Shown one piece after another: positions 3,010-25,024 of a stretch of 38,911 nucleotides of DNA; position 1 is the first letter of the stretch, and every line of letters starts with the position of its first letter. Location of the stretch: the IMG/VR virus record IMGVR_UViG_3300007735_000705, positions 1-38,911 of that record, one strand, 5' to 3'. This stretch comes from a virus. The notes below the pieces were generated by a model that saw only the letters and a list, made by a program, of their open reading frames with translations, ran no database searches and was not told the DNA's origin. A program made the translations under genes and the position numbers.

Positions 3010-3976
3010 TGTTGCTGCCGTAGTTGAGGAATACCTCGCCGCGCATCCAACCCTGCCGAGCCGTCAACTGGCTCGCATGATGTATAAGGAGCACTCGCTC
3101 CTCTGGTCTAACTGGGACGCGGCTTACGCAGCTATTCGTTATCGTCGCGGAGCTATTGGTAAACACAACCGCAAGGCTGTTGGCCTTGAACAATCTATTA
3201 CTCCCGTGCGCCAAATCCCGGCATCCGTCACCCGTGAATTCACGCCATTCATCATGGATGGCGTAGAGAAGGTAGCTATCCTCTCTGACATCCACGTTCC
3301 CTATCACACCCCAGCAGCCATTGAGTGCGCGGTGAAGCGTGCGCTGAAGGAGGACGTAGACGGCATCATCCTCAACGGCGACACCATCGACTGCCACTCC
3401 CTGTCCACGTTTGTCCGTGATCCCCGCGCCCGCAACTTCAAGCAGGAGCGGGACACGACCAACGAGCTACTGGCCTACCTCCGTGAGCGATTCCCCGATG
3501 CTCGCATCGTCTGGCGCGACGGCAACCATGAGGATAGGTTCAAGACCTACATGATGACCAAGGCTCCCGAAATCTTCCATCTGGACGAGTTCGCGCTGGA
3601 GAATCTTTTAGCCTTTGACGAGCACGACATCGAATATGTCACGGACAAGCGCATCATCATGGTGGGCGGGTTGGCTGTGATGCACGGGCATGAGTTCTTC
3701 AAGGGCTTCGCGCCCCCGGTGAACCCTGCTCGCGGAGCCTACCTCAAGGCCAAGCAAAGCTGCATGGTGGGCCATCACCATCGCACGTCAGAGCACACGG
3801 AAACGGCCCTAGACGGCTCTATAACGACCACTTGGAGCGTGGGGTGCCTGTCGGACCTCCACCCTGCCTACTCCCCGTATAACAGCTACAATCACGGCGC
3901 AGCCATCATCCACCTAGATGGGGACGAATTTCACGTCCACAACTACCGGATTGTGAATGGCCGCGCCCTGAATTAG
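2993..3976 (+). CDS. calcineurin-like metallophosphoesterase
   Basis: The 327-residue protein shows the full metallophosphoesterase signature in order: SDIH (Asp99, His101), NGD (Asp130), GNHE (177-180), HGH (231-233) and GHHH (260-263). These ligate two metal ions for hydrolysis of phosphomono- or diesters. The first 85 residues form a separate basic segment containing LPSRQLARMM, which may be a helix-turn-helix-like DNA- or partner-binding unit. Phage relatives act on nucleic acid ends or nucleotides, but the substrate cannot be read here. It closes the plus-strand block, and its TAG overlaps the stop of the converging late operon. Confidence 0.9.
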   Translation: MPHNPDVAAVVEEYLAAHPTLPSRQLARMMYKEHSLLWSNWDAAYAAIRYRRGAIGKHNRKAVGLEQSITPVRQIPASVTREFTPFIMDGVEKVAILSDIHVPYHTPAAIECAVKRALKEDVDGIILNGDTIDCHSLSTFVRDPRARNFKQERDTTNELLAYLRERFPDARIVWRDGNHEDRFKTYMMTKAPEIFHLDEFALENLLAFDEHDIEYVTDKRIIMVGGLAVMHGHEFFKGFAPPVNPARGAYLKAKQSCMVGHHHRTSEHTETALDGSITTTWSVGCLSDLHPAYSPYNSYNHGAAIIHLDGDEFHVHNYRIVNGRALN

Positions 3977-6843
3977 CGGTTCTGCTGTTCGTAACGCCGC
4001 TTATTCTCTTCGTCGCGAGCACGATAGATATTAAGCAACGTACCAAGCGCGGGGCTGCGGTTAATCGCAACATCCAAAGCCCCGCCAGCTTGACGAATCT
4101 TGTTAGAAATCTCGGGATCGACGTACATCTTGTACAGAATGCTGTACTGCTTGTCGCGAGCCAAATCCAGCAAGGGGTTTAGGTTACCGATAGCAGCAAC
4201 ACGGCGAAGCAAGCCATCGGAACCCGTAGTGCGAATTCGGCTCTGAATTACGTCAGCACCCTCACGCGGGGCAGCGCGAAGGGATGCGTCGGTTTCAAGA
4301 GCACGCATCACCGGACGACCAAAGGTCTCCTTTAGGTTCTTGAAGCGGGCCTCACCAAGCAATGCTCGATATTGGTTGCGGAAGGCAATGGCATCGCTGT
4401 TCTGGTTGAAGAAGAAGTCGCCAATCTTCTGTAGGTCGGCAGTCGTGGCTGACCCATTGGCAACACTTTCAAACTGACGCATAATTTGCGTGGTTGCAGC
4501 AATACGAAGCTCCTCCAAGTCGCTTCCACGCTTAGACTGCTCCAGAGCGGTTACGAGTCCCTTGATTTGAGACTCGGGCATAGTCATAATGCGGGTAACA
4601 AACTTAGCGTTGTTGGCGTCATCACCAGACAGCTTGACGTTGGTGTCGCCCATGAACTCAACAAGCGCATCTTTCTTAGCATCAAGAAGAAGCGCATTGG
4701 CGTTCTCGGCATTCAGCTTAGCATTGCGGAAAGCCTCACGCGCCCTAGCTGCCGCTTTTGCCCTAGATCCAGCATCGCTTGCAATGAGTTCGTCGCGAAC
4801 AGCATTGCGATAGGCCGTAGCCCAAGCAGCTCGGTCCTCACCCAAAGCCTGAACTTGGTCGAGGAATAGATTTAGGTCTTCACGGGTAACCGTGGTCACC
4901 CCGGTCATGTTCTGAATGCGAGCAAGCGCACGGATTTGCTTAGGAGTGCCTAGGCCAAGCTGACCAACCGGAATCCCTCGGGTGTCGAGGGTGTCCAGCA
5001 TAGTAATCATCTTCTTGGTATCGAAAGCTCCCGGTCCCTGCTTGATGCCAGTTCCGATGTTTTGAGCGTTGCCAAGTGCTCCCTCTCTCAGGATGTCATA
5101 AACGTAACGGCGGAAGTAGCCGCCAGCAGCCATTGCTGCATCACGGGATGCCGTATCTGCTGGATTGAAAGACGCCTTCAGCATCTTTTCAATGTCCATA
5201 AGGCCAGTCATTGCCTGACTTTCCTTTCCGCCCTCCAAGATCTCCTTGAAGAGTTGATCCGACTCACCATTAACAAGTTGACGGAATACCGTGCTGTTTA
5301 CCGCCTTAAAGCGAGTGGCAGCCAAAGCCTGCGCCGTTTTCCAGCCAGCCAACGCATTGGGGTTGGTCGCGGCCATATACTCATCGGCAGCCTCAGAAAC
5401 AACGTCGTAGGCAACCTGACGCAAGGCTCGCTTAGAAGCCTCGCTCTGGCCCGGAAGCTCAAGCGATTCAATGAGATCGCCGCGAAGCTGAATGAAATTA
5501 TCGTAGCTGAGCAGCCCGTCTGGCGCAAACTTATCCATAGCGGCAGCTACTCGGCCAGCCAGTAGGTCACGGGCGGCTGGATCGTTCAACGGGCTTCCAC
5601 GGCGGGCGGATGCGCGTCGCATGACATCGCTAAAGTTATCCGCGCTAAGCACCCGCGTATTACGTTTAACGCCAGATGCCTCATATCCAGCATCAACGAC
5701 GCTCTTGATGAACTCATCAGAACCCCTTGCCAACTGACGGGCGCGGGCATCCCGAGCGCCTAGGGCAACATCGGAAAGGGGAACATTGTTAGCGCCGAAG
5801 ATGTTAAGGACTTCATCGCCATAAGCGGCCTCAAGTGCTTGAGCCTTGAAAGCACGCAGCCGCGCATCGGCAATAGCTGCCTTAGCCCCCTCGCCAGAAA
5901 TAGCACCAAGACGATCAGCCTCCTGCTGGGCGGCAAAAGCCTCATCGGCAGCAATACGAGCATCTCTCTGTAGGTTCTCCAGCTTTCCACGCGCAGCCAT
6001 CAACGTCTGGCGAACATTATCTGACGTTACTGCCGGGAACTCTTCAGCAATAACCCCACCAATATCTGAACGAATGGAGGCAAGGCGCTGGAGCGCCTGT
6101 TGATTGCTACGGGCATACGCCTTCTGCTCAAGAACGGCCATATCTGGCACCGCCTCAGACAGCATCACCGTTGGCTTGATTCCTCGGCCCTGACCAGCAA
6201 TTACGCGATTAGCAGCAGCTTCTTCAGATAGCTGAGAGGTTCGTCCACCAAGCGAGCCAAGACCAGCGGTGATAGCCGGAAGGCCATAACGCTGGAATGT
6301 TTCTCCCGCAGTTTGTGGAGAAGTCTCTTCTATATATTTCTTAACGCTTTCGGGTTCTGACAAATCGCCACCAGATCCCATAAAGTTGGAAATCTCGCTA
6401 AATCCAATGTTTGAAGCAAGGTTTTTAGCCCCCCGCATGAGAAGGCCGCCGCTTTGAAACATCGGAGTTCCACCAGCAATTCCTGCCGCCAAAATAGATG
6501 AAGCATTGCGCTTAATCTCTGGGTCGCGCATACTATCCATGACATTGGCAAGATACTCGCCAATCATAGATGTCCCCGCTCCGGTAAGCGAAGCCCCTAA
6601 AACAGTAGGCGGGGCAACCGCAATACCAGCAGCCATCGGAGCAAGCCGTGCCGTAGCAGAGCCAACTTGCAATGCCTGCTCAGGGTTCTCAAACGACGGG
6701 AATCCACCAGATAGGGCGAGGGTCTGAGCGGAAGTGGCACCACGGGATTCGCGGCGGCGCACATCGGCCATAACTGTAGCCTCATCAGTTCCCTCTGGAT
6801 ATTCCAACAGACCCAAATTGGGATGGCGAATTTTGATGCTCAT
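3973..6843 (-). CDS. large ejection/internal virion-type protein (956 aa)
   Basis: I chose the ATG giving MSIKIRHPNLGLLEYPEGTD over an upstream one that would overlap the preceding gene. The N-terminal GLLEYPEGTDEATVM resembles the short beta motif found at the start of many large phage internal or tail-tip proteins. Next comes a glycine/alanine-rich, possibly membrane-active stretch (about 50-130, including MAAGIAVAPPTVLGASLTGA). Then follow some 700 residues of alanine-rich charged helix with no enzymatic motif that I recognise. It is the last gene of the late operon, after two other ejection-type proteins, the usual place for proteins delivered with the DNA. The assignment rests on length, composition and position. 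Confidence 0.65.
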   Translation of the reverse strand: MSIKIRHPNLGLLEYPEGTDEATVMADVRRRESRGATSAQTLALSGGFPSFENPEQALQVGSATARLAPMAAGIAVAPPTVLGASLTGAGTSMIGEYLANVMDSMRDPEIKRNASSILAAGIAGGTPMFQSGGLLMRGAKNLASNIGFSEISNFMGSGGDLSEPESVKKYIEETSPQTAGETFQRYGLPAITAGLGSLGGRTSQLSEEAAANRVIAGQGRGIKPTVMLSEAVPDMAVLEQKAYARSNQQALQRLASIRSDIGGVIAEEFPAVTSDNVRQTLMAARGKLENLQRDARIAADEAFAAQQEADRLGAISGEGAKAAIADARLRAFKAQALEAAYGDEVLNIFGANNVPLSDVALGARDARARQLARGSDEFIKSVVDAGYEASGVKRNTRVLSADNFSDVMRRASARRGSPLNDPAARDLLAGRVAAAMDKFAPDGLLSYDNFIQLRGDLIESLELPGQSEASKRALRQVAYDVVSEAADEYMAATNPNALAGWKTAQALAATRFKAVNSTVFRQLVNGESDQLFKEILEGGKESQAMTGLMDIEKMLKASFNPADTASRDAAMAAGGYFRRYVYDILREGALGNAQNIGTGIKQGPGAFDTKKMITMLDTLDTRGIPVGQLGLGTPKQIRALARIQNMTGVTTVTREDLNLFLDQVQALGEDRAAWATAYRNAVRDELIASDAGSRAKAAARAREAFRNAKLNAENANALLLDAKKDALVEFMGDTNVKLSGDDANNAKFVTRIMTMPESQIKGLVTALEQSKRGSDLEELRIAATTQIMRQFESVANGSATTADLQKIGDFFFNQNSDAIAFRNQYRALLGEARFKNLKETFGRPVMRALETDASLRAAPREGADVIQSRIRTTGSDGLLRRVAAIGNLNPLLDLARDKQYSILYKMYVDPEISNKIRQAGGALDVAINRSPALGTLLNIYRARDEENKRRYEQQNR

Positions 6844-6853
6844 TAAATTGATT

Positions 6854-8296
6854 TTACTTCTTCTTCCTAACCACTCTTCCGTTAACAATCTCGTACTCGC
6901 CAGACTCAAGAGCGGCATTCTGTCCACCAACCCCTAGGGCGTTGCCTTGCTGGTCAAACATTCCGCCGCCTGCTCCAGTAGACAGGAAGTATTGGTAATC
7001 TGTCTCAGGTACAAGAAAGGCATTTCTGTAGAATGAAGCAGTATTGTCAATTTCTGGAGACGGCGAAGTGAAGGTTTTTTCAACCGATTTATTGAACCGT
7101 TGAATCTGATTACCAATGTCGATTTTATAGTTTTTAATCATTTCTCGCAACGCTTCGGCACTAACAGAAGGATCTCCAGCAATAATCTTTGCAGCGGTCT
7201 TCAAATCGGTGTCAGAAATAGCAGTTCCGCTACCAAAGGCTTGCACGGCAGCAGCAAGCTGCTTGTAAGCTGCGTTCAAATAAACATCTGTCGCGGCGAC
7301 ATCCCTAAAGTTGGTTAGACCAATTTTATTAAGCGCACTCTTAACATCGCGCTCAGCTCCAGCAAGCCAGCCAGTAATGATTTGGTTATCCTTTACGACA
7401 CGGCCATTTTTATCAACAACTCCAGAATTGAGCAATGACTCCATCACTTTCAAGCTATTCGCTTGATTGACGTACTCATTGATTTTTTCAGACTGCGGAA
7501 CAAATTTGCTTTTTGCTAACGTATCAAGCGCATTAATTGCTCCACGTTCACCCACATTAATATTGGTTTGAGCACTATTCTGTTGGCGAACCCTAGCGCC
7601 AATTTGAGCAAACTCGATAGCATTTGGCCGTCTTCCAGTTTGAAGCGTAAAAGCCTCAGCCTCTCGCTGAATCTGAGCGGCTTCGTTGTTTGGCTCTTTG
7701 GGAGTTGGGTTCAACAAGGCTTGAGTTTCGGCCAAGGTCTTTCCAAGTTGAGCCTGACCAATCTGCTGCTCAAGCGCCATAGCCTGACCAGCCCTACGAG
7801 CTTCGGGGGATAGGCCAGCAAACTCTTGATTCTGGCGAAAGTTGCGAAGGTTAGACATAAACTCAGGCTCACCAACAGTAGGTGCGCTTTGAGTGGTAAG
7901 GAAATCAGCATACCTAGCTGCTTCACCCTTCGTCTTTTCCGCCTTCTGCTGTTTAGCGGCTTCAGCGAGATAGGTGTTAAGCTGGAGGGTGCCGGGAACG
8001 CCGAGCGTGTCCACCATCGTCCTGATAGCTTCCTTGTCCACCTTGCCGTCTTTGAGGTAGCCTTGGAACGCAGAGGGATTGGCCTCTACGGTCTTGATGA
8101 AGGAGTTCGCCGCCTCCTCCTTCTTCTTGTCCTCCTCCTTCTTGGCGTAATAGGTGTTGATTGCGCCGCTAGCAGCTTGCCCTAGGCTGGCAATGCCCTG
8201 AGCAATCGACTGACTGCCAGCCATAGCCCCCTGCATATAGGGGGTGTAGTTGATTGCGCCAAGACCAGCTTGAATACCTGTTCCGAAGCGTGCCAT
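6854..8296 (-). CDS. internal virion/ejection-type protein (480 aa)
   Basis: The chosen ATG gives MARFGTGIQAGLGAINYTPY and lies one base after the stop of the 1210-residue gene. The N-terminal 50 residues are small and hydrophobic (GAMAGSQSIAQGIASLGQAA). A lysine/glutamate-rich helix follows (KKEEDKKKEEA). The rest is helical and includes VQAFGSGTAISDTDLKTAAK, a pattern common in phage DNA-ejection proteins. The end is IVNGRVVRKKK. No catalytic residues stand out. It sits between two larger ejection-type genes, so a role in the internal core or transenvelope channel is likely but unproven. Confidence 0.6.
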   Translation of the reverse strand: MARFGTGIQAGLGAINYTPYMQGAMAGSQSIAQGIASLGQAASGAINTYYAKKEEDKKKEEAANSFIKTVEANPSAFQGYLKDGKVDKEAIRTMVDTLGVPGTLQLNTYLAEAAKQQKAEKTKGEAARYADFLTTQSAPTVGEPEFMSNLRNFRQNQEFAGLSPEARRAGQAMALEQQIGQAQLGKTLAETQALLNPTPKEPNNEAAQIQREAEAFTLQTGRRPNAIEFAQIGARVRQQNSAQTNINVGERGAINALDTLAKSKFVPQSEKINEYVNQANSLKVMESLLNSGVVDKNGRVVKDNQIITGWLAGAERDVKSALNKIGLTNFRDVAATDVYLNAAYKQLAAAVQAFGSGTAISDTDLKTAAKIIAGDPSVSAEALREMIKNYKIDIGNQIQRFNKSVEKTFTSPSPEIDNTASFYRNAFLVPETDYQYFLSTGAGGGMFDQQGNALGVGGQNAALESGEYEIVNGRVVRKKK

Positions 8297-8297
8297 G

Positions 8298-11200
8298 TTA
8301 GGAGAAGAGATAGTTGTTAATACGGGAGTCCATCCACTTGCGGACGAGGTTCTTGATGCGCGGTTTGTTCTTGATCCACGCAGCAAAGCCCTCGCCATAC
8401 TTGAAGTAGAGCTTCTTGAACCAAGACGGAGCCTTGGTCACAAGCCACTCACGGAACATCATCCAGCGGGGATTGGTTTCGCCATACACTTCGCGGGCTA
8501 CCCAGCAGAATATCGGAAGTTTCGGGATAACCGCGCCAGCCACGTTGCCAACTGCGCCAATCGTAGCACCAGCAATTGCACCCTGAGCCGCAGCGCGAGC
8601 ACCATAGGTAGCAGCCTGATAGTTGCCGAGGTTGGCGTTCTGCTGGAGGGCGAGGTTGACACCAGCGTTCGGATCAAACACCTGACCACCCATGCTCTGC
8701 ATCATGCCAGCCGCCAAGCCCTGCTGGTTCTGGCCCACGCCCAGCGCACCGGACGGACGACCAAGAACAACGCTCATGGGATCAAAGGCTGCGCCGTAAA
8801 GGCCAACCAACTGGCTCTGGAAGGCGCGATTAGCAGCCAATTCACCCTGCTGTGCCTGACCAAGGAGTCCAAGATTGGCAATATTCTGTTGCTGTTGAGA
8901 CGCTTGGAACGCTCTATTCTGCAAACCAGTAGCGGTAGCCTGTTCAGCATTGAACAAATTAATCTGGTTTTGCGCGGCTTGGTTAGCCAACGCACTACGC
9001 ATAGCAATGTCTTGGTTAGACAGAATCCCCTGATTAGCAGCGGTGGCACCAAACTGCGCCGCTTGATTCTGGGCGGCGAGGTTGGCCAACGACATCTGGT
9101 TGAGTGCCTGCTGATTGGCCCCCTGCTGCTGCAGGAAGGCATTGGCGTTGAATATACTGCCCTGATTTGCAGCCTCCATGCTAAGCCGCGCCGCCTCCTG
9201 TTGGTTTTGGAGGTTGGCAAGGACCATTTGATTGGCAGCTTGCTGATTAGCCATGTCATACCGACCAAGAAGCTCGGTATTGAACATACTCACCTGATTT
9301 TGTGCACCCGCACCAAACTGAGCAGCCTGATTAATAGCAGACAGGTTTGCCAAAGCCATCTGCTGCTGTGCCTGCTGATCTGCCGCAGCTTGCTGGAGAA
9401 ATGTTTGCTGATTAGCGAGAGTAGCTTGGTTTCTAGCACCCGCTCCAAATTGGAATGCTTCCTGTCTAGCCTGCAAATTAGCAAGGGCCATTTGCTGTTG
9501 AGCCTGTTGGTCCGCAGCAGCCTGCTGGAGGAACGCCTGCTGATTGGCAAGGGTGGCCTGATTCATGGCCCCTGCACCAAATTGAGCGGCTTCCTGCTGG
9601 GCTTGCAGATTAGCCATAGCCATCTGGTTAGCAGCCTGCTGGTTGGCTAGGCTAAACTGACCAAGAAGCTGAGCATTAGCAAGAGAAGCCTGATTAAAGG
9701 CTCCTGCGCCAAATTGCCCCGCCTGACTCATGGCAGCGGCGTTAGCCAAGTTGGCTTGAGCCTGCGTAGCCTGATTTGCAAGGGCTATACGAGCCTGTTG
9801 CTCCGCATTGAGGGTGCGGGCCTGCATCTGAGCCTGTTGGTTCGCTAAAGCGAATTGCGCGGCCTGCTGTGCATTCACGGTGCCAGCCTGCATCTGCACG
9901 CCCTGATTGGCTAGGGCAAGAGCGCGGGCTTGTTCAGCACCAGCCAAGGAAGCCACATTCTGGGCACCAGCCCCAAATTGAGCCGCCTGATTAGCGGCAG
10001 CAGCCGTAGCAGCAGCAGCCTGAGCTTGAGCCTGTTGATTGGCCAAGGCAAACTGCGCCTGCTGACCAACATTAAGACCAGTCGTTTGAAGCTGCGCCTG
10101 TTGATTAGCGAGGGCAAAACGTGCCGCTTGTTCAGCGTTAGCAACAGCAGCAGCATTGCCAGCCGTAGCTCCAAATTGACCAGCCTGATTAGCAGCAGCT
10201 TGATTCGCAGCGGCGGCTTGCAATTGGGCCTGCTGGTTAGCCATTGCGAACTGAGCAGCCTGCTGGGCATTAGCAGCAGCGGCAGCGTTCTGTGCTCCAG
10301 CACCAAACTGGGCGGCTTGGTTAGCCGCAGCCTGATCCGCCAAAGACAACTGACCAGCCATAGCCTGATTGGCCTGAGCAGCTTGAAGCGCAGCAGCTTG
10401 ATTAGCTTGCTGCATTCCAACATCCTGACCATACACGCCCGTAGCAAATCCACGGCTTGCACCAAGATCAGCAAGGTAGGCTTGGTTGAGTGCAGCCGCC
10501 TGTTGAATATCCTGAGCCTGACGTTGACGGGTGGCTTCTGCGCGGGCCATAGCTTCCGCAGCAATGGCTTGATTGCTCATCTCTAGCCCACGGGCAGTAA
10601 ATGCCTCGCGGGTAGCCTGCTGAGCGTTGCGAAGCTCCTCTGGCGTAAGTTGGCCCGTAGACCGAGCCATTTCCGCTGCACGCTGACGGAACGTAGCAGA
10701 AGCCTCCGTAGGCGCAGCGGAAACAGCCTGCCCATAGAGGGTTTGGCCCAAAAGACCCTGACCAATATTTTGCGCGGTAACTCCAGCAACTGGAGCAGCC
10801 GTAGCGGCACCATATCCAGTAGCACTAACCGTCGGAGCGGCTCCTACACTTGGAGCCTGCATCTGTGCAGCCGTATATCCCTGCTGCGTAATCTGCGGAG
10901 CAGCACCAAGAAGCGCAGCTTGCGCAACGGGCGCAGCACCAAGCGTCGGAGCCTCAGTAGCTACAGCCTGATAGCCGGTAGCCGTAGGGGCCGGAAGCCC
11001 AGCGGCGATAGCAGCCTGTACGGACGGCGCAGCACCAAGCAAAGAAGCCCGCACTCGCGGGGCCATTGCAATAGTTGGCGCATTGGCAACAGCAGCCTCG
11101 TATCCCGTAGCCGCAGCTTGCGGAGCAGCCCCAGCCATCGTAGCCTGACCTTGTGCGGCTTGAAAACCCTGTAAAGCAATAGGCGCAGCCGTGCGCTGAG

Positions 11201-11930
11201 TTGTAGCTTGGCCCTGTGCAGCCTCAAAGCCCTGCAAGGCAATTGGTGCAGCCGTGCGCTGCATTGTGGCCTGCCCAGTTGCGGCTTCATATCCTGTAGC
11301 CGCAGCCTGCGGAGCAGCACCCAACATCTGGGCCTGCCCCTGTGCAGCGGTCATGCCCTGCAAAGCAACAGGACTCAAAGCCTGCTGCAAAGAGGCATTT
11401 CCCGTAATAGCCCCATAGCCGCGAAGATCAGCCTGCGGCACACCGCTAACCAATGAAGCCTGAGCAGAAGTGGGAACTATGTCGCCATAGCGGACAGAAT
11501 CGGTAATCGCCTTATTTAGCCCACCGTAAAGATCCGTAGGGCCACCCATCGCTCGCGCAGCCTCAAGCTGAGCGAACATCTGAGGATTGGCTTTCTGAAG
11601 AGCCTCAAGAAATCCAGCACTTTGGCTCTGAAGAGCGCGAAGATCCGCATCGCGCTGAAGACGATCAGCCGTTTCCTGAGCCTTAACAAGATCAGGCGTA
11701 ACTTGCTTAAGAATATCAATGGCACCAGCCTGACCACCAACGCCACGCAAATACTGCTCCATTTCTTGGAGATTGAGTTGCGTGTACTGCGGACGAAACT
11801 GCTGCTCTGCGCCCAGCAGCTTCTCCTGCAAGGCCGGATCGGCCATTGCGTTGATGTAATCAAGTGCTGCCTTGCCGGGATCAACCGGAGGGGGCGGCGG
11901 GGGAGCGGCTGAAATTCTAGTAGAACCCAT
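8298..11930 (-). CDS. 1210-aa Ala/Gln/Asn-rich repeat virion protein
   Basis: The protein has four zones. Residues 1-170 are a proline-rich start and mixed helix. About 180-400 hold an alanine/glycine-rich region with degenerate repeats of roughly 20 residues around ALQGFEAAQGQATTQRTAAP. About 500-1030 are an almost uncharged helix of Ala, Gln and Asn with recurring QAAQFGAGAQN and QQAQFALANQQAQ units. The last 110 residues are different: a glycine/alanine hydrophobic stretch, then an aromatic basic domain with CWVAREVYG and WLVTKAPSWFKKLYFKYGE. That end domain is familiar to me from other phage structural proteins. The long uncharged helix with a basic aromatic end suits an ejected channel-forming protein. 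Position agrees. Confidence 0.65.
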   Translation of the reverse strand: MGSTRISAAPPPPPPVDPGKAALDYINAMADPALQEKLLGAEQQFRPQYTQLNLQEMEQYLRGVGGQAGAIDILKQVTPDLVKAQETADRLQRDADLRALQSQSAGFLEALQKANPQMFAQLEAARAMGGPTDLYGGLNKAITDSVRYGDIVPTSAQASLVSGVPQADLRGYGAITGNASLQQALSPVALQGMTAAQGQAQMLGAAPQAAATGYEAATGQATMQRTAAPIALQGFEAAQGQATTQRTAAPIALQGFQAAQGQATMAGAAPQAAATGYEAAVANAPTIAMAPRVRASLLGAAPSVQAAIAAGLPAPTATGYQAVATEAPTLGAAPVAQAALLGAAPQITQQGYTAAQMQAPSVGAAPTVSATGYGAATAAPVAGVTAQNIGQGLLGQTLYGQAVSAAPTEASATFRQRAAEMARSTGQLTPEELRNAQQATREAFTARGLEMSNQAIAAEAMARAEATRQRQAQDIQQAAALNQAYLADLGASRGFATGVYGQDVGMQQANQAAALQAAQANQAMAGQLSLADQAAANQAAQFGAGAQNAAAAANAQQAAQFAMANQQAQLQAAAANQAAANQAGQFGATAGNAAAVANAEQAARFALANQQAQLQTTGLNVGQQAQFALANQQAQAQAAAATAAAANQAAQFGAGAQNVASLAGAEQARALALANQGVQMQAGTVNAQQAAQFALANQQAQMQARTLNAEQQARIALANQATQAQANLANAAAMSQAGQFGAGAFNQASLANAQLLGQFSLANQQAANQMAMANLQAQQEAAQFGAGAMNQATLANQQAFLQQAAADQQAQQQMALANLQARQEAFQFGAGARNQATLANQQTFLQQAAADQQAQQQMALANLSAINQAAQFGAGAQNQVSMFNTELLGRYDMANQQAANQMVLANLQNQQEAARLSMEAANQGSIFNANAFLQQQGANQQALNQMSLANLAAQNQAAQFGATAANQGILSNQDIAMRSALANQAAQNQINLFNAEQATATGLQNRAFQASQQQQNIANLGLLGQAQQGELAANRAFQSQLVGLYGAAFDPMSVVLGRPSGALGVGQNQQGLAAGMMQSMGGQVFDPNAGVNLALQQNANLGNYQAATYGARAAAQGAIAGATIGAVGNVAGAVIPKLPIFCWVAREVYGETNPRWMMFREWLVTKAPSWFKKLYFKYGEGFAAWIKNKPRIKNLVRKWMDSRINNYLFS

Positions 11931-16298: not shown

Positions 16299-16742
16299 TC
16301 AGGGCTTTACAGGCCAAACAACATTCTCGGGGAAGCCAGACTGACTGGGAATGTCACGCAAGGCTTGCCGATAGTTAGTCCATGCTACCTTAGCTGCATT
16401 ATCCAGCGGTGTGTCGTTAAGCTGAGTCCAATCGCTCTGGGAAAGCAAATTGTTGCGTTCCACGCGCACGCCCTCTGCCTTCTGGTTGCGAATCTGACTC
16501 AATTCTGATTCGGTGTACTTGCTCCAGAGCTTAACTTCAACCACTTCCGTTGGGTTGATGGCAAACATAGAACCAACATATTTTTCGTCCACGGCACCCT
16601 CATCAATGCGGACAGGCAACCAACCGATAGACTGAAGCCCAATATCGCTCATCTGATCGAGACCAGAGATGTTGCGCCACGAACGCGGAAGACTGCGCGG
16701 ACCCTCCACAATAGTGTTGTTCTCAACAAAACAGTAGTTCAT
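16299..16742 (-). CDS. tail assembly chaperone-like protein (Phage_tail_APC type)
   Basis: The 147-residue protein starts MNYCFVENNTIVEGPRSLP. Its C-terminal half reads VRVERNNLLSQSDWTQL, then AWTNYRQALRDIPSQSGFPE and VVWPVKP. 'RN.LL..SDWTQ......W..YRQALRDIP.Q.GFP....WP..P' is the hallmark of the phage tail assembly chaperone family found next to fibre genes. Such proteins are thought to help fibres fold or attach. The start overlaps the glycosyltransferase gene as ATGA. It lies between two fibre genes, which fits. Confidence 0.8.
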   Translation of the reverse strand: MNYCFVENNTIVEGPRSLPRSWRNISGLDQMSDIGLQSIGWLPVRIDEGAVDEKYVGSMFAINPTEVVEVKLWSKYTESELSQIRNQKAEGVRVERNNLLSQSDWTQLNDTPLDNAAKVAWTNYRQALRDIPSQSGFPENVVWPVKP

Positions 16743-17725
16743 TTTAGGAATTGAGTGAGCTTCGCCTTTACCTCCTCAAGCGGATGCGACCAGTCGCCGT
16801 ACTTCTTCTGGCGGAAAAGCGTTACAGCATCATACCATACTGAAGTGTCTTTAGCCTCAGCCCATGCGTAATAGGGCATGATTGGTACAATAACCCATGT
16901 CTTGACCCCCAAGGCGGCTGATAGATGGGCAATGGACGTACAGGATGTAATTACTAAGTTAAGCCCCTTGATGATACTTGCCGTGTCTTCAAAGGTTTTC
17001 ATTTGGTCGCGAAGGTCGGCAAATGGCAGTCCGTCGATCAAGTTGTCGTCCCGTTGCAGCGAATAGAAAGTTGCGCCGTCCAGCTTATGAAGGTCAATCA
17101 GCGGCTGCGGGTCAAACCTACGGTGCTGCTCATGCTCAAACTTGGGGTTACCAGCCCAGCGCAGACCCACCTTGAACGTGTTAGGCTTTGCGTAAAGCTG
17201 CTTGGCCTCGGCCTCTAGATAAAACTGACTAGGAAAGTTGTGCGTGTCGTAGCCTAGGATATGCGCTGCCGACATCGCCGGAACCCAGTAGTCGTAGTGA
17301 ATGTAGGGCGTTGCTCCGTTGTCGATGCATACGAATCCATGCCGCGAGAACAGAGCCATAAGCTCTGGGGCGCACGATACCACTACCCTTGCTCCCTTTG
17401 CCACAAAGTCTTTGGCAAATCGGAAGTTCATTATCTGATCGCCAAGACCGTTTTCGCAGCGAAAGAGCAAAGTCTTGTTGGTCAGATCTTGGTCTTTCCA
17501 GATTGGGCCGGGGATGCGCGGAAGACCAAAGACATTGATGAATCTTCCAGCATCCATCATCTGCAATCCCTTGTTTAGATTGCCGTGACGTGCCTCATGC
17601 CAGCCAAGGTTAAAAACTACCCGCGCATCTTCTTGCTCTGGATAGTTTCGCAGAATGTCCTCCGATATGTCTGGATGCCCGTTTATGCAGGCTTCCAGAG
17701 CCATATCGAGTGGGTGGTGCTTCAT
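16739..17725 (-). CDS. glycosyltransferase-like protein (GT9/TPR-linked type)
   Basis: The 328-residue protein starts with about 55 residues of TPR-like helix (LEACINGHPDISEDILRNYP; FNLGWHEARHGNLNKGLQMM). It then shows a GT-B fold pattern: TLLFRCENGLGDQIMNFRFA (the glycine-rich GLGD turn), VGLRWAGNPKFEHEQHRRF, and near the end DTASIIKGLNLVITSCTSIA followed by HLSAALGVKTWV. These are the landmarks of bacterial heptosyltransferase-like, TPR-associated sugar transferases. It lies between the RCC1 adhesin and the chaperone, overlapping both by ATGA. It could glycosylate a virion protein or alter host surface sugars. The donor sugar cannot be read. Confidence 0.8.
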   Translation of the reverse strand: MKHHPLDMALEACINGHPDISEDILRNYPEQEDARVVFNLGWHEARHGNLNKGLQMMDAGRFINVFGLPRIPGPIWKDQDLTNKTLLFRCENGLGDQIMNFRFAKDFVAKGARVVVSCAPELMALFSRHGFVCIDNGATPYIHYDYWVPAMSAAHILGYDTHNFPSQFYLEAEAKQLYAKPNTFKVGLRWAGNPKFEHEQHRRFDPQPLIDLHKLDGATFYSLQRDDNLIDGLPFADLRDQMKTFEDTASIIKGLNLVITSCTSIAHLSAALGVKTWVIVPIMPYYAWAEAKDTSVWYDAVTLFRQKKYGDWSHPLEEVKAKLTQFLK

Positions 17726-19926
17726 AGACTTAGGGCACCGGCAAGATTGCCGGAGAACCTAGTTGCACCTAATTCTTTCCAAGTTGTCAATGCGCCAATC
17801 TGTACCGGAGACGATTGATTGGTAACGGTTCCATCACCAAGCGATCCGTAGGTATTAACTCCCCAAGACCAAATGGTTCCGTCAGTCTTTAGCGAAATCG
17901 TTGAACCCTGACCAGCGTTAACCAAACTCCAATTGGACAATGCGCCTACTTGAATGGGAGATGACTTGGAAATAACAGTACCATCACCAAGTCTTCCCGC
18001 CGTGGCCGTTCCCCACGCCCAGAGAGTGCCATCGGTCTTAACCGCAACACAGAATGAGTCACCCATGGATACTTGGCTCCAGTTGGATAGCGCACCTACT
18101 TGAATTGGAGACGACTTAGCCACCGTAGTGCCGTCGCCAAGCCTACCGCCACCATTTGCTCCCCACGTCCACAATGTCCCATTGGTTTTTACTGCGGCGG
18201 ATGAATCTGTTCCAGCAGACACTTGGCTCCAATCGGACAATGCGCCAACTTGAACAGGGGAACTGTAATTGGTCAGGTTGTTTGTTCCGAGTTGGCCGGT
18301 GGAGTTGGTCCCCCAAGCCCAGAGCGTTCCATCGGTCTTAATAGACAATGAATAAGAACTTCCCGCAACAATTTTAGACCAGTCGGTAAGAACACCAACT
18401 TGAACTGGAGAAGACTTAGTTACAGCGGTGCCATCGCCCAGTTGGCCTGAAGTTCCCAAACCCCAAGACCACAAAGTGCCATCGGTTTTAATGGCATGGC
18501 AATGAGTCTGACCGGCTGAAACATTGGCCCAATTAGAGAGCGTTCCAACTTGAACCGGAGACGATCTAAATGCAACGCTATTGCTTCCAAGGTAACCAAG
18601 TCTATTAGCACCCCAAGACCAAAGCGTTCCAGCAGTCTTGATTGCCACCGTAAAGCCCTCTAAGCCGTTTTCACCAAAAGAAACCTTAGTCCACTCATTA
18701 GATCCAATCTGAACCGGAGACGAGTAGTGATTGGTGTTTAGTCCGTTGATTCCAGAAACGCCAGCACCCCAAGACCAAAGAGATCCGGTTGTTTTGCCAA
18801 AAATTGCACCTACGTTAGAAGCAGATGCGCTAAAGATATTTACGGTTACACTAGAAGACCAGTTGGTATCAGATCCGGTTTGGACGGGCGAAGACGTACT
18901 GACAACCGTTGTGTTGCCGTGATTACCTACTCCATTAGCTCCCCATGCCCAAAGCGTGCCGTCAGTTTTAACGCCATAGCACTCGGTGTTAACTGTAAAT
19001 GGTGCCGACCAGTCGGTTAAGGCTCCAACTTGTACCGGAGATGATTTGCTGGTTGTGGTGCCGTCTCCAAGTTGTCCGCTAGTTCCAAGTCCCCAAGTCC
19101 AAAGTGTTCCGTCTGTCTTAACAGCAGAGCTAGAAGCTTGTCCAGCACTAACCTTTGACCAAGTGGTAAGTGCGCCGATTTGCACAGGGGAAGACGTATC
19201 TGAGATGGTGCCAGTACCCAGCCTTCCATTAGTATTGTTTCCCCAAGCCCAAAGGGTGCCATCCGTTTTAACGGCCAAACAATGCGTTGCCCCGGCAGAA
19301 ACCTGAGACCAAGTGGTTAGGGCACCAATTTGGATGGGGGAAGTTTTTTGAGTAATTGTTCCGTCACCAAGCTGTCCATTGAGGTTGAGACCCCATGCCC
19401 AAAGCGTTCCGTCTGTTTTAACGGCAACGCAAAAGTTGGTTCCAGCGCGAGCCTGACTCCAATTAGAAAGGGCACCAACTTGAACAGGTGAAGACTTTGA
19501 CGTAGTAGTACCGTCACCAAGTGCGCCGTTAGTGCCCGCTCCCCAAGTCCAAAGCGTGCCATTGGTTTTTATCGCAACATTGTGGGCATTTCCGCAACTT
19601 ACCTGAGACCAATCGGAAAGTGCGCCAATTTGAACTGGCGATGATTTGTCAACGGTAGTGCCATCACCAAGCTGACCGGAGCTATTGCCACCCCAAGCCC
19701 ACAAGGTGCCTGTCGTACCTACGGCAACGCAATGCGAAGTTCCTCTACTTGCTTTTGCCCAAGTAGTTAAAGCTCCAATTTGCTTTGGTTCGGTTTGATT
19801 AATTGACGTGCTGTTGCCAATGCTGCCCCAAAGATTGAGTCCCCAATTGTACAGATTGTAGCTATTGTTAACAACGCCACCGGGAGCCGCCGCGCCCATG
19901 GCTAGTCTCAGAATGTTAGGGTCCAT
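17722..19926 (-). CDS. RCC1-repeat beta-propeller virion protein (14 repeats)
   Basis: The 734-residue protein is almost entirely RCC1 repeats of about 50 residues with the unit 'TDGTLWAWG.N..GQLGDGT...SSPVQIGALT.WSQVSAG'. I count 14 units, the first and last degenerate. Seven blades make one RCC1 propeller, so two propellers in tandem are expected. The short N-terminus (MDPNILRLAMGAAAPGG) could be the anchor to the tail. It lies between the fibre and the glycosyltransferase genes, so a receptor-binding or side-tail role is the best reading. Units 7 and 8 are the most diverged, which marks the likely boundary between the propellers. Confidence 0.8.
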   Translation of the reverse strand: MDPNILRLAMGAAAPGGVVNNSYNLYNWGLNLWGSIGNSTSINQTEPKQIGALTTWAKASRGTSHCVAVGTTGTLWAWGGNSSGQLGDGTTVDKSSPVQIGALSDWSQVSCGNAHNVAIKTNGTLWTWGAGTNGALGDGTTTSKSSPVQVGALSNWSQARAGTNFCVAVKTDGTLWAWGLNLNGQLGDGTITQKTSPIQIGALTTWSQVSAGATHCLAVKTDGTLWAWGNNTNGRLGTGTISDTSSPVQIGALTTWSKVSAGQASSSAVKTDGTLWTWGLGTSGQLGDGTTTSKSSPVQVGALTDWSAPFTVNTECYGVKTDGTLWAWGANGVGNHGNTTVVSTSSPVQTGSDTNWSSSVTVNIFSASASNVGAIFGKTTGSLWSWGAGVSGINGLNTNHYSSPVQIGSNEWTKVSFGENGLEGFTVAIKTAGTLWSWGANRLGYLGSNSVAFRSSPVQVGTLSNWANVSAGQTHCHAIKTDGTLWSWGLGTSGQLGDGTAVTKSSPVQVGVLTDWSKIVAGSSYSLSIKTDGTLWAWGTNSTGQLGTNNLTNYSSPVQVGALSDWSQVSAGTDSSAAVKTNGTLWTWGANGGGRLGDGTTVAKSSPIQVGALSNWSQVSMGDSFCVAVKTDGTLWAWGTATAGRLGDGTVISKSSPIQVGALSNWSLVNAGQGSTISLKTDGTIWSWGVNTYGSLGDGTVTNQSSPVQIGALTTWKELGATRFSGNLAGALSL

Positions 19927-19928
19927 GA

Positions 19929-21692
19929 TTAGTTAACGTAGTTTACCAAAGAGGCTCCACGCCAAGTGGTTCCACTATCATCGGTGACAAAGATAAAAAT
20001 ATGCGTTTTGCCCGTAGTCAACGTAGGAGCCGTATTTGCGGGCCATTTTACGGCAGCAGGCCATGTAACGGCACCAGAGGTATGGGTTAGCTCAAGAGCA
20101 AAGGCGTATGCGCGGCTAGACGGCGGGCTGCTAAAGGTAAACGTGGAGTCAGCCGCTATGGTTTTAGTGAAATAGTTGGCGGTAGAACAATCGACATCCA
20201 AAGCCGCCATTGCCGTGATGTTGGATGCGTAATTACCAGACAGGTCCAGTTTGGCTGCTGGAGAGGCTTGTCCAATACCCATCCGACCATTGGACTCGAT
20301 GCGGAATACCTCCGTGCCGCCCTCCGTAAAAGCGATAGAGTCAGCAGCCGGGAAAAAGATGCCCGTGTTAGTGTCGCCGCTGGTGGTGATGGCGGGCGCG
20401 GATACCGTGCCAGCCGTAACCGTAGCTACACCCGTAGCTTCAAGCGTTGTAAACTTACCAGCCGCAGAAGCAGTTCCACCGATAGCCGGAGGAGAAGCAA
20501 GGTAGGTGCTGAATCCCGTACCGCTTACGGTGCTAGAAGCACTAAGCGTCGTAAATGCTCCGCTAGCCGCAGTACTGGCTCCAACCGTTGTTCCATTGAT
20601 TGATCCACCAGTAATTGCTACATTGCTCGCAGCTTGACTGGAAATCGTACCAAGGGTTGGAAGTCCGCTGAGATCTGAATACTTACCACTAGTAGCTACC
20701 GTAGCAAGAGTTGGAGTTCCACTAAGGTCGGAATATTTGCCCGATGTAGCTACCGTAGCTAGTCCGCTGACGTTAGCTGCTGGAACCGTACCCGTGCTAA
20801 TCGTCCCAAGAGTGGTGATGTTCGTACTTCCAGCCCAAGTGCTGAGAGCCGTGTTCTCTACATTGCCAAGACCAATAGCGGTTTTCGCGGAACTGGCAGA
20901 GTAGTTTTCCCAACGCTTGTCTCCACCGTCATAAACAAGAAAGTCGTTGTTGGCCGGGGACGTAAGCTGTACGTTCTGGTCCGTTCCACCAAGCTGCGAG
21001 CCGGGGAAAATCTTGACGTAAATCGAGCCAGAGCTACCAGAGCCAGCATTGATAACGATGCCGACTTCAGCTTTGATGTTGGGCGCGGTGGGCTTAGTTG
21101 CCGTCATTGCTCCGCTGCCAGCCGGATCGTACCAAAGCGTATCGTTGTCCAAATAGGCCGACGTGTTTAGGCCGGGAACTTTTCCCATGGCAACAACGCG
21201 ACCAAAGCCATTAAGAGCAATATTCTCAAAGGCTACGCCAACAAAAACATTTCCATCGGTAATGCCAGCGGTTGCGGGGCCAAACGTAATCACACCAGAA
21301 GCCCCAACAACGCCCGTTTTCATCACCAACTGACCCTTGGTGATTGCGGCAGACGCCTTGCCGTACACCATAATCTGTTCATTAAGCTGGCTGGTAAAGC
21401 CGCCACTATCAACATGAACATTCAGCGTTCCGGTAGAACCCCACCAAAGTTTGCCTTCCGTTGGGGTAACGGTAGCTGCTGTGTCAAACTGGATAAAGTC
21501 AGGAGACGAAATACCGCCCGTAACACCAGTCATGGACGTAATGTCCGCATTGGTGCCAGACGCTGCTGCCCCAAGATTGGTACGCGCATCAGCGGCGTTC
21601 GTAGCTCCGGTGCCGCCCTGATTGACAGGAACGGTTCCAGAAAGCGTAGCCGAGGTCGGCGTGTCCAACAGCAGCGTCTTAAAAATGTCCAT
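19929..21692 (-). CDS. tail fibre protein
   Basis: The 587-residue protein starts MDIFKTLLLDTPTSATLSGT and has the classic fibre phrase VPVNQGGTGATNAADARTNLG. A beta-rich shaft follows (VYGKASAAITKGQLVMKTG), then repeats of TVATSGKYSDLSGTPTLA and SGAFTTLSASSTVSGTGFST-type segments, and GRMGIGQASPAAKLDLSGNY. The last ~95 residues repeat the terminal domain of the 195-residue fibre gene (ALDVDCSTANYFTKTI to TTWRGASLVNYVN). This is a trimeric fibre by analogy with known phages. It is followed two bases later by the RCC1 gene. Confidence 0.85.
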   Translation of the reverse strand: MDIFKTLLLDTPTSATLSGTVPVNQGGTGATNAADARTNLGAAASGTNADITSMTGVTGGISSPDFIQFDTAATVTPTEGKLWWGSTGTLNVHVDSGGFTSQLNEQIMVYGKASAAITKGQLVMKTGVVGASGVITFGPATAGITDGNVFVGVAFENIALNGFGRVVAMGKVPGLNTSAYLDNDTLWYDPAGSGAMTATKPTAPNIKAEVGIVINAGSGSSGSIYVKIFPGSQLGGTDQNVQLTSPANNDFLVYDGGDKRWENYSASSAKTAIGLGNVENTALSTWAGSTNITTLGTISTGTVPAANVSGLATVATSGKYSDLSGTPTLATVATSGKYSDLSGLPTLGTISSQAASNVAITGGSINGTTVGASTAASGAFTTLSASSTVSGTGFSTYLASPPAIGGTASAAGKFTTLEATGVATVTAGTVSAPAITTSGDTNTGIFFPAADSIAFTEGGTEVFRIESNGRMGIGQASPAAKLDLSGNYASNITAMAALDVDCSTANYFTKTIAADSTFTFSSPPSSRAYAFALELTHTSGAVTWPAAVKWPANTAPTLTTGKTHIFIFVTDDSGTTWRGASLVNYVN

Positions 21693-24040: not shown

Positions 24041-25024
24041 TTAGCTGAGCGTGGTGATCTTACCATGCGCACCGGGATGCTTGACCAGCAGGGTCATCGC
24101 GCAGTCAACATAACCGCGCTCGCCACCACCGAGGTTCGGCAGACGGGTCGAGCCGAGCGGGATCAGTTCCGCAACACCGTAGAACTCCGGATTGACGAGA
24201 TAGCCCGTGTCCTTGTTCGTGGTGTCCGGAGCGCAATCCGGATTCATGTTCACGATGGAGACAATGCCGTGATCGGACTCATAGAGTTCGACCGACAGCT
24301 TGATCGTCGCCTCGCCGCCCTCGTAAGCCACACGGCGAACCGAGTAGTCCGAGCTACCCGACGTGCGGGCGAAGTCGCTGATGACGCGGCGCAGGGCCGT
24401 GTCAGCAACCAGCGTCAGACCATTCGACGTACCCGTAACGCGGTAGATCGAGGTGATGAGGTTGTTGAACACCGTCTCGTTGAACGTACCCGAGGCGTGG
24501 ATGGAACCAGCCGGGGTGCGGTAGGTCGCGGGAACATCCGCCGGACCAGCCGAGTCGATCCAGTCGCCAAGGCCGCGCAGGCCATAGGGCGTACCAGCAC
24601 CATCCTCAACGGAACGGTCGTTGTTGGAGATCAGGGTCGCCTCGATGTCGCGCTTGATTTCGCGGACAGCCTTGGCCTCAGCCTGAGCGATCTTGGCCGG
24701 ACCAACGCTATCGACAGCGTTCTGGAGGTCGGACACCATGTAGTCGCGGCGGAACTTCTGGATGTAGTTACCCAGACGAGCGCGGTTGGCGAACTTGTCC
24801 GTGAACACCGTGACATCGGAACCTTCCGCAACGCCCGTGGTAACGGGAGCCGAGAGGCTATCAACGGTCCACTCCACGAAGGTAGCGGACGCCTTGGACT
24901 TAGCAGCAGACGAGAGAACCGGAGTCTCCTCGGGGGCGAGGATCGTCAGGACATCGAGGAGGTCTTCGCGGTTAGAAACAGCGGAGCCGGGATTGGTCGT
25001 ATCGTAGGTATTAGAGAAAGCCAT
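24041..25024 (-). CDS. major capsid protein (DUF5309/SU10 type)
   Basis: The 327-residue protein starts MAFSNTYDTTNPGSAVSNRE and has LTILAPEETPVLSSAAKSKA, TFVEWTVDSLSAP, RARLGNYIQKFRRDYMVSD and SVGPAKIAQAEAKAVREIKR. These segments match what I recall of the DUF5309 family, now described as the SU10-type major capsid protein with the HK97 fold. It follows the scaffold gene by 12 bases. The leader (TAAACTACTACTACAATG) has no Shine-Dalgarno and is A/C rich, which is surprising for the most abundant virion protein. Confidence 0.85.
   Translation of the reverse strand: MAFSNTYDTTNPGSAVSNREDLLDVLTILAPEETPVLSSAAKSKASATFVEWTVDSLSAPVTTGVAEGSDVTVFTDKFANRARLGNYIQKFRRDYMVSDLQNAVDSVGPAKIAQAEAKAVREIKRDIEATLISNNDRSVEDGAGTPYGLRGLGDWIDSAGPADVPATYRTPAGSIHASGTFNETVFNNLITSIYRVTGTSNGLTLVADTALRRVISDFARTSGSSDYSVRRVAYEGGEATIKLSVELYESDHGIVSIVNMNPDCAPDTTNKDTGYLVNPEFYGVAELIPLGSTRLPNLGGGERGYVDCAMTLLVKHPGAHGKITTLS

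Follow-up and report, generated by a model that had tools for sequence, protein, structure and literature searches.

Among phages, RCC1-like proteins have been described in the Rak2-like jumbo phages. Mass spectrometry detected GAP32 Gp1 in virions (PMC5259590), and for the eleven RCC1-like proteins of phAPEC6 the authors suggested a function in DNA organisation (PMC7247149). PHROGs lists phage RCC1 genes under DNA metabolism, with the label 'regulator of chromosome condensation'. A search of open-access papers on RCC1 together with phage tail or propeller returned none assigning a phage tail or receptor role, and linkage to modifying enzymes, quantisation in seven units or a hypervariable face of phage RCC1 proteins was not found in the searchable literature. 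Here we describe an RCC1-repeat gene from the IMG/VR virus record IMGVR_UViG_3300007735_000705 (positions 1 to 38,911; this whole stretch of 38,911 nucleotides is referred to as the window). The window belongs to a freshwater-type phage, and its positions 15000-38911 found no match by megablast in 50,697 phage records. The best explanation as a whole, to which we assign a probability of roughly 0.55, is that the gene encodes a tail protein made of two RCC1 propellers with a variable host-contact face, which is modified by a glycosyltransferase (GT) encoded next to it.

The open reading frame (ORF) starts with ATG, and its product scores 402.6 bits (E 3e-123) against Pfam RCC1 (PF00415), for which the cut-off is 21.7, and 453.3 bits as an RCC1-like domain. 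A PF00415 scan of the DNA gave 14 repeat places in a single open frame, 12 of which were above the curated cut-off. The units start at residues 25, 75, 125, 175, 225, 275, 325, 383, 435, 485, 535, 585, 635 and 685, i.e., with a spacing of 50 residues except for 58 after unit 7 and 52 after unit 8. Unit 7 is 33-47% and unit 8 is 37-50% identical to the other units, whereas most other pairs share 46-76%; the array ends, units 1 and 14, are likewise diverged. Scan, spacing and identities thus confirm the initial annotation of 14 repeats of about 50 residues with units 7 and 8 diverged. At the DNA level the repeats are about 50-65% alike, and their 150-nucleotide period is interrupted at the unit 7/8 position, which marks the array as old and maintained. 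The gene can be divided as follows:

17722..19926, minus strand: RCC1-repeat protein of 734 amino acids with 14 units (ORF, Pfam scores, repeat scan)
19855..19926, minus strand: N-terminal segment, residues 1-24, the first 12 of which are conserved in relatives
18781..19854, minus strand: predicted propeller 1, units 1-7, residues 25-382 (repeats, turn motif, structural alignment of residues 29-380)
18625..18954, minus strand: units 7 and 8 with the diverged junction and an 8-residue insertion, the putative linker between the propellers (spacing, identity)
17725..18780, minus strand: predicted propeller 2, units 8-14, residues 383-734 (repeats, unit count, half-propeller tree)

Residues 1-12, MDPN(I/V)(L/I)(R/K)LAMGA, are kept in relatives whose propellers are 46-53% identical, and the segment of residues 1-24 is a candidate virion anchor.

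The number of units in related proteins is informative for the architecture. Searches with RCC1, the capsid protein and the neighbouring enzyme retrieved viral contigs, which yielded 204 distinct complete RCC1 ORFs. The repeats span 7 units in 148 of them, 14 in 30, 21 in four, 28 in four and 42 in one. Multiples of seven therefore account for 187 of the 204; the other 17 lie mostly one unit from a multiple. A search with the major capsid protein (MCP) returned relatives that are 96-99% identical. In those that reach far enough, RCC1 sits between the fibre and the transferase, with 14 units at three loci (L030, L037, L045) and seven units at another seven (L031, L032, L033, L034, L036, L038, L043); in L041 the locus is interrupted by the contig end.

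An AlphaFold model of the 734-residue protein was of low confidence (pLDDT 55.5, pTM 0.47) and was used for fold comparison only. Residues 29-380 of the model align with the propellers of UVR8, RPGR, HERC2 and RCC1 (Z 27-30, rmsd about 3), and the match stops at the end of unit 7. Of the checks proposed with the initial annotation, the repeat count in relatives gave a clear answer, and the structure prediction, with its low confidence for the whole protein, gave one for the first half. The B-C turn within the blade (consensus AIKTDGT) points the same way. Across 17 fourteen-unit proteins its mean score is 3.9 at junction 7 versus 10-20 elsewhere, and in the window protein the turn at this junction reads GKTTGS. 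The same test on 21-unit (n=3) and 28-unit (n=2) proteins showed no clear pattern, as they were too few. Strand C is the first and strand B the last of each chain; a closing blade would therefore have to be shared between both ends of each seven-unit block, as in known velcro closures.

The quantisation in sevens, the seven- or 14-unit relatives, the structural match of propeller 1 and the degraded junction 7 together indicate that the 14-unit protein is very probably a pair of closed seven-bladed propellers, as the initial annotation had proposed. For propeller 2, the predicted seven-bladed ring follows from homology and unit count. An alternative would be a single large ring of all 14 units or an open solenoid, since the repeats run on without a long linker. 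We reject this because of the quantisation and the junction evidence, and single-propeller orthologues and the alignment of the first half with seven-bladed structures also speak against it. With 4-12 blades given for the known propellers (PMC3797127), we consider such an arrangement most improbable.

RCC1 and the tail fibre are the fastest-evolving tail genes. In comparison with relatives whose MCP is 96-98% identical, identity amounts to 46-53% for RCC1 and 38-81% for the fibre, while most other genes share 62-97%. Within the blade, variability peaks at positions 5, 7 and 8 (the start of the C-D loop) and at positions 37-42 (the A-B loop). The mean entropy, which was computed in three sets (seven-unit proteins, N halves and C halves), is 1.8-2.6 bits at these variable loops versus 0.5-0.9 for the B-C turn and the D-A segment. 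According to the strand order of the four-stranded meander, with strand positions taken from the low-confidence model, the A-B and C-D loops would lie on one face and the B-C and D-A connections on the other. In eight close pairs pooled, the nonsynonymous divergence (dN) is 0.194 for the variable face versus 0.046 for the other face at similar synonymous divergence (dS), which corresponds to a pooled omega (dN/dS) of 0.63 versus 0.17. The dN/dS of RCC1 equals or exceeds that of the neighbouring GT in all 11 pairs. Such sequence divergence is what a constant scaffold presenting a variable binding face would show.

RCC1 propellers are found fused to tail proteins in other phages. PollyC and SeaP2, two Pseudomonas phages, have the RCC1 part after a T7-type fibre N-terminal domain (PF03906, E 6e-5, slightly under the Pfam cut-off), and the gene occupies the fibre's place in the genome; for PollyC, phrog tail fibre matches reach E 2e-66. 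A further locus (L026:4432-7356) encodes an RCC1 propeller after a gp6-like baseplate wedge domain (phrog_219, E 2e-33). In the window, the RCC1 gene adjoins the fibre, and a fibre assembly chaperone is in the same block, a location expected of a receptor-binding protein. The receptor binding suggested by the initial annotation is made plausible by the fast divergence, the single hypervariable face and the fusions to tail fibre and baseplate proteins elsewhere; the binding itself we infer. That the protein sits in the virion tail is indirectly suggested by the tail operon, by GAP32 Gp1 as a related protein detected in virions and by these fusions. A host-contact role of the RCC1 tail protein is, on balance, likely. 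The analogy between RCC1 and chromatin drawn by the phAPEC6 authors (PMC7247149) would have the protein organise the packaged DNA or the capsid interior. However, the tail and baseplate fusions together with one hypervariable face, which is unexpected for a DNA organiser, argue against DNA organisation as a general role of phage RCC1 proteins. As the window gene is also situated within a fibre-chaperone block, such a role seems highly unlikely here. Guanine nucleotide exchange or chromatin binding, as in RCC1 (the Ran exchange factor), is not expected in the phage protein either.

The genes around RCC1 that bear on its function are the following:

19929..21692, minus strand: tail fibre protein, upstream of RCC1, the other fast-diverging gene of the module
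16739..17725, minus strand: TPR-like/GT9-like GT with a TibC-like fold (fold comparison, linkage)
16299..16742, minus strand: tail fibre assembly chaperone (Phage_tail_APC, from Pfam and PHROGs), overlapping the GT stop codon
15700..16287, minus strand: short 195-residue protein with the C-terminal tip domain of the long fibre (phrog_9017, from PHROGs)
24041..25024, minus strand: MCP (SU10-type), the query for close relatives

The fibre, RCC1, GT, chaperone and short fibre-tip genes are all on one strand. Two base pairs separate the fibre stop from the RCC1 start, and the ATG of the GT overlaps the RCC1 stop codon as ATGA. The initial annotation was right in placing RCC1 between the fibre and the GT. 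It treated the GT as a mere marker of position, and this part does not hold, because the GT is tightly linked to RCC1 in viruses. RCC1 lies close upstream in 71 of the 77 newly collected IMG/VR loci closest to the GT, and the remaining six contigs start at the GT. For a GT group that is 37% identical, RCC1 was found in 27 of 29 loci, both exceptions being contig ends, and for the L017 GT group in nine of nine loci with enough upstream sequence. In total, RCC1 is present at all 107 viral GT loci that extend far enough upstream. A survey of 28 MCP relatives with at least 4 kb downstream of a conserved gene showed RCC1 in 10, the GT in the same 10 and neither in 18 (Fisher p 8e-8, a value that overstates independence, as the co-occurrence is nested in one clade).

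When the search was started from RCC1, the GT family was found somewhere in the flanks of 45 of 58 loci. The GT is present in five of the 50,697 phage records, and four of these, from three phages (BUCT-ZZ01, S-SRM01 and AG-345-E08), also hold RCC1; the match in the fifth is a 23% identical protein adjoining capsid genes. The RCC1 genes of S-SRM01 adjoin the long tail fibre distal subunit, the GT, a sulfotransferase, a second GT and an epimerase. These data indicate that the GT is probably part of the RCC1 system. The same RCC1-GT pair was also seen on bacterial contigs, some of which may be phage contigs in bins.

The GT could also modify the tail fibre or another virion protein, with RCC1 being a mere neighbour. 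The fibre is adjacent and diverges fast as well, and TibC-like enzymes act on non-propeller adhesins. However, the order RCC1-GT recurs in phages whose fibres are unrelated and also in T4-like cyanophages, and capsid relatives that lack RCC1, some of them with a fibre matching that of the window, lack the GT too. Such a substrate is therefore unlikely.

The GT consists of 328 amino acids, with a helical TPR-like part (residues 1-80) followed by a GT-B domain (model pLDDT 85.4). Its closest structural matches are TibC, a protein heptosyltransferase of autotransporter adhesins (Foldseek E 1e-6), and GT9 heptosyltransferases; Z values of 15-16 were obtained to GT9, TibC, WaaF and WaaC. The score against Pfam Glyco_transf_9 was 11.4 bits, below the cut-off of 22. 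An E91-x-G93-x-G95-D96 motif is invariant in the GT family, which by motif makes Asp96 a candidate counterpart of the catalytic D110 of TibC. The four-cysteine iron finger, a motif described for the autotransporter heptosyltransferases (BAHT) to which TibC belongs (PMC4358343), is absent from the GT, which has five scattered cysteines only (13, 90, 118, 133 and 262).

The GT9 fold also includes heptosyltransferases of lipopolysaccharide (LPS). The enzyme might thus act on host surface glycans or LPS during infection, leading to superinfection exclusion, and the RCC1 protein would be an unrelated tail protein; serotype-converting enzymes are known in phages. Nevertheless, no membrane or conversion genes were noted beside the GT, its start overlaps the RCC1 gene inside the tail operon, and the linkage to RCC1 is near absolute, which a host-acting enzyme would not require. 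We regard this option as quite unlikely. That the linked enzyme modifies the RCC1 propeller is likely, if with slightly more reserve than the host-contact role.

In the seven-unit relatives, the gene at the place of the GT encodes about 590 amino acids, made up of an N-terminal sulfotransferase (PF13469, E 2e-17) and a transferase that is 35-37% identical to the GT. Sulfotransferase-glycosyltransferase fusions were observed beside RCC1 at L031:7337-9115, L033:10590-12395 and L032:16242-18014. The identity of the GT to its counterparts in the relatives compared above for RCC1 divergence is 83-90% in a cassette of the same type and 35-37% in the other type. Considered with the RCC1 identity of 46-53%, this suggests that RCC1 and its enzyme are exchanged as one unit. 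A strict coupling of blade number to GT type was considered and rejected. It is true in the capsid-defined clade (3/3, 7/7) and fails beyond it, as L124 and L126 combine seven units with a GT-only enzyme and L010 combines 14 units with a fusion enzyme. Other neighbours of RCC1 are sulfotransferases, adenosine 5'-phosphosulfate (APS) kinase-like proteins, methyltransferases and GT25. APS kinase matches occur in eight of 44 RCC1 neighbours (L189-L263); these proteins may make the sulfate donor 3'-phosphoadenosine 5'-phosphosulfate (PAPS) or may be other P-loop kinases. Sulfation of a phage protein would be unusual.

The mechanism that we propose is as follows. Two closed seven-bladed RCC1-type propellers would stand behind the conserved N-terminal segment, with framework residues holding the rings, while the variable A-B and C-D loops would make a ligand-binding face that contacts the host surface as a receptor-binding or adhesion site. 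The translationally coupled TPR-GT9/TibC-like transferase would glycosylate the RCC1 protein during infection. In relatives, sulfate would probably be added too, since the transferase there is fused to a sulfotransferase. The propeller gene and its modifying enzyme would move together as a cassette, and a one-propeller version carrying another enzyme could take its place. Within this scheme, we infer the virion location in the window phage, the receptor binding, and the substrate and sugar of the enzyme.

Several points weigh against the proposed mechanism. The model of the 734-residue protein is of low confidence, and the structural comparison spans the first propeller only. The pooled omega of the variable face stays below 1 and so does not demonstrate positive selection (omega >1) on this face. 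The co-occurrence of RCC1 and GT among the 28 capsid relatives is confined to one clade, and most cultured RCC1 phages (of Clostridioides, Helicobacter, Pseudomonas and Brevibacillus) do not have this GT. Lastly, the Ser and Thr content is 23.2% in RCC1 proteins with a GT versus 21.9% in those without; a difference of 1.3 points is unconvincing, and Ser/Thr enrichment was no longer counted as evidence for glycosylation.

In a tree of half-propellers, the N half of the window protein groups with the N halves of its relatives and the C half with the C halves, at modest support. This suggests that the two-propeller form probably predates the close relatives of the window. In L114, L120 and L188, the N and C halves group together (with weak resolution), so that occasional homogenisation or re-duplication is probable. 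A recent duplication of a whole propeller in the window gene is not supported, because pairs of units i and i+7 are 51.6% identical compared with a mean of 51.0%, and the halves mostly group with the matching halves of relatives. The initial annotation had also suggested that tandem repeats allow changes in blade number. The number does vary, but by whole propellers (7, 14, 21, 28 and 42) rather than by single blades. The few off-multiples of 12-13 units, such as L013, which is L010 minus one 50-residue unit and otherwise near-identical, could be due to collapse in short-read assembly or to blade loss. Arrays of separate one-propeller RCC1 genes were seen as well, with seven ORFs of seven units in L209 and four each in L210, L237, L239, L254 and L257. 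Two viral RCC1 proteins are very large, namely L015 (4744 amino acids, about 75 units) and L018 (4179 amino acids, about 74 units); both are ended by the locus or contig, and their unit counts far exceed the six propellers of complete ORFs.

Two further observations concern the rest of the window. The phrog_9017 tip domain is common to the long fibre (19929-21692) and the 195-residue protein after the chaperone, and the latter is possibly an alternative to or a partner of the fibre tip. There is no Pfam or PHROGs match for three late ORFs of very large size (985, 514 and 1210 amino acids; 3973-11930, minus strand).

On this evidence, phage RCC1 genes would move from DNA metabolism to the tail proteins for host contact, with a hypervariable face and an enzyme dedicated to their modification. 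If true, many phage glycosyltransferases and sulfotransferases gain a probable substrate that can be tested directly, and the propeller joins the scaffolds that phages diversify for host contact. More tentatively, a system of two parts may be widespread among aquatic phages: linked enzymes would glycosylate, and often also sulfate, a diversifying RCC1-propeller adhesin before its display on the tail. The adhesin in this conjectured system, which we hold with the same reserve, would have one to six propellers per chain or come as arrays of single-propeller genes, and its protein face and chemical coat would together set host contact or protect the particle.

Compared with known systems, the closest genomic counterparts are the islands of the cyanophages BUCT-ZZ01 and S-SRM01, in which RCC1 and a GT of the same family are neighbours close to tail fibre genes; S-SRM01 additionally has a sulfotransferase, an epimerase and a 2OG oxygenase. 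These phages differ in being T4-like myoviruses, and the genes are annotated only as RCC1, BNR, TPR or hypothetical. The T7-type fibres of PollyC and SeaP2 likewise have an RCC1 propeller at the host-contact position of a podovirus tail, but there it is fused to the fibre N-domain, whereas in the window phage RCC1 is a separate gene after the fibre. GAP32 Gp1 and the phAPEC6/121Q array share with the window protein that they are phage RCC1-like proteins, with multi-copy arrays and with Gp1 in virions (PMC5259590); by contrast, the passages on these proteins give no tail or receptor role and mention no linked GT.

The GT resembles the TibC/AAH autotransporter heptosyltransferases of TibA and AIDA-I in its GT9-like GT-B fold and conserved GD motif, and would resemble them in being a dedicated enzyme for a repetitive, beta-rich adhesin. 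It differs in its identity of only 12-14%, in having no iron-finger cysteines, and in TPR-like helices that replace the N-terminal beta-barrel. Finally, the seven-bladed propellers of RCC1, UVR8 and BLIP-II (PF00415, PF25390) have the repeat motif, the blade of about 50 residues, the four strands and the fold (Foldseek, VIA-align) in common with the phage protein, which differs from them in being encoded in a tail operon, in having two propellers per chain and a single hypervariable face, and in its linked modifying enzyme.

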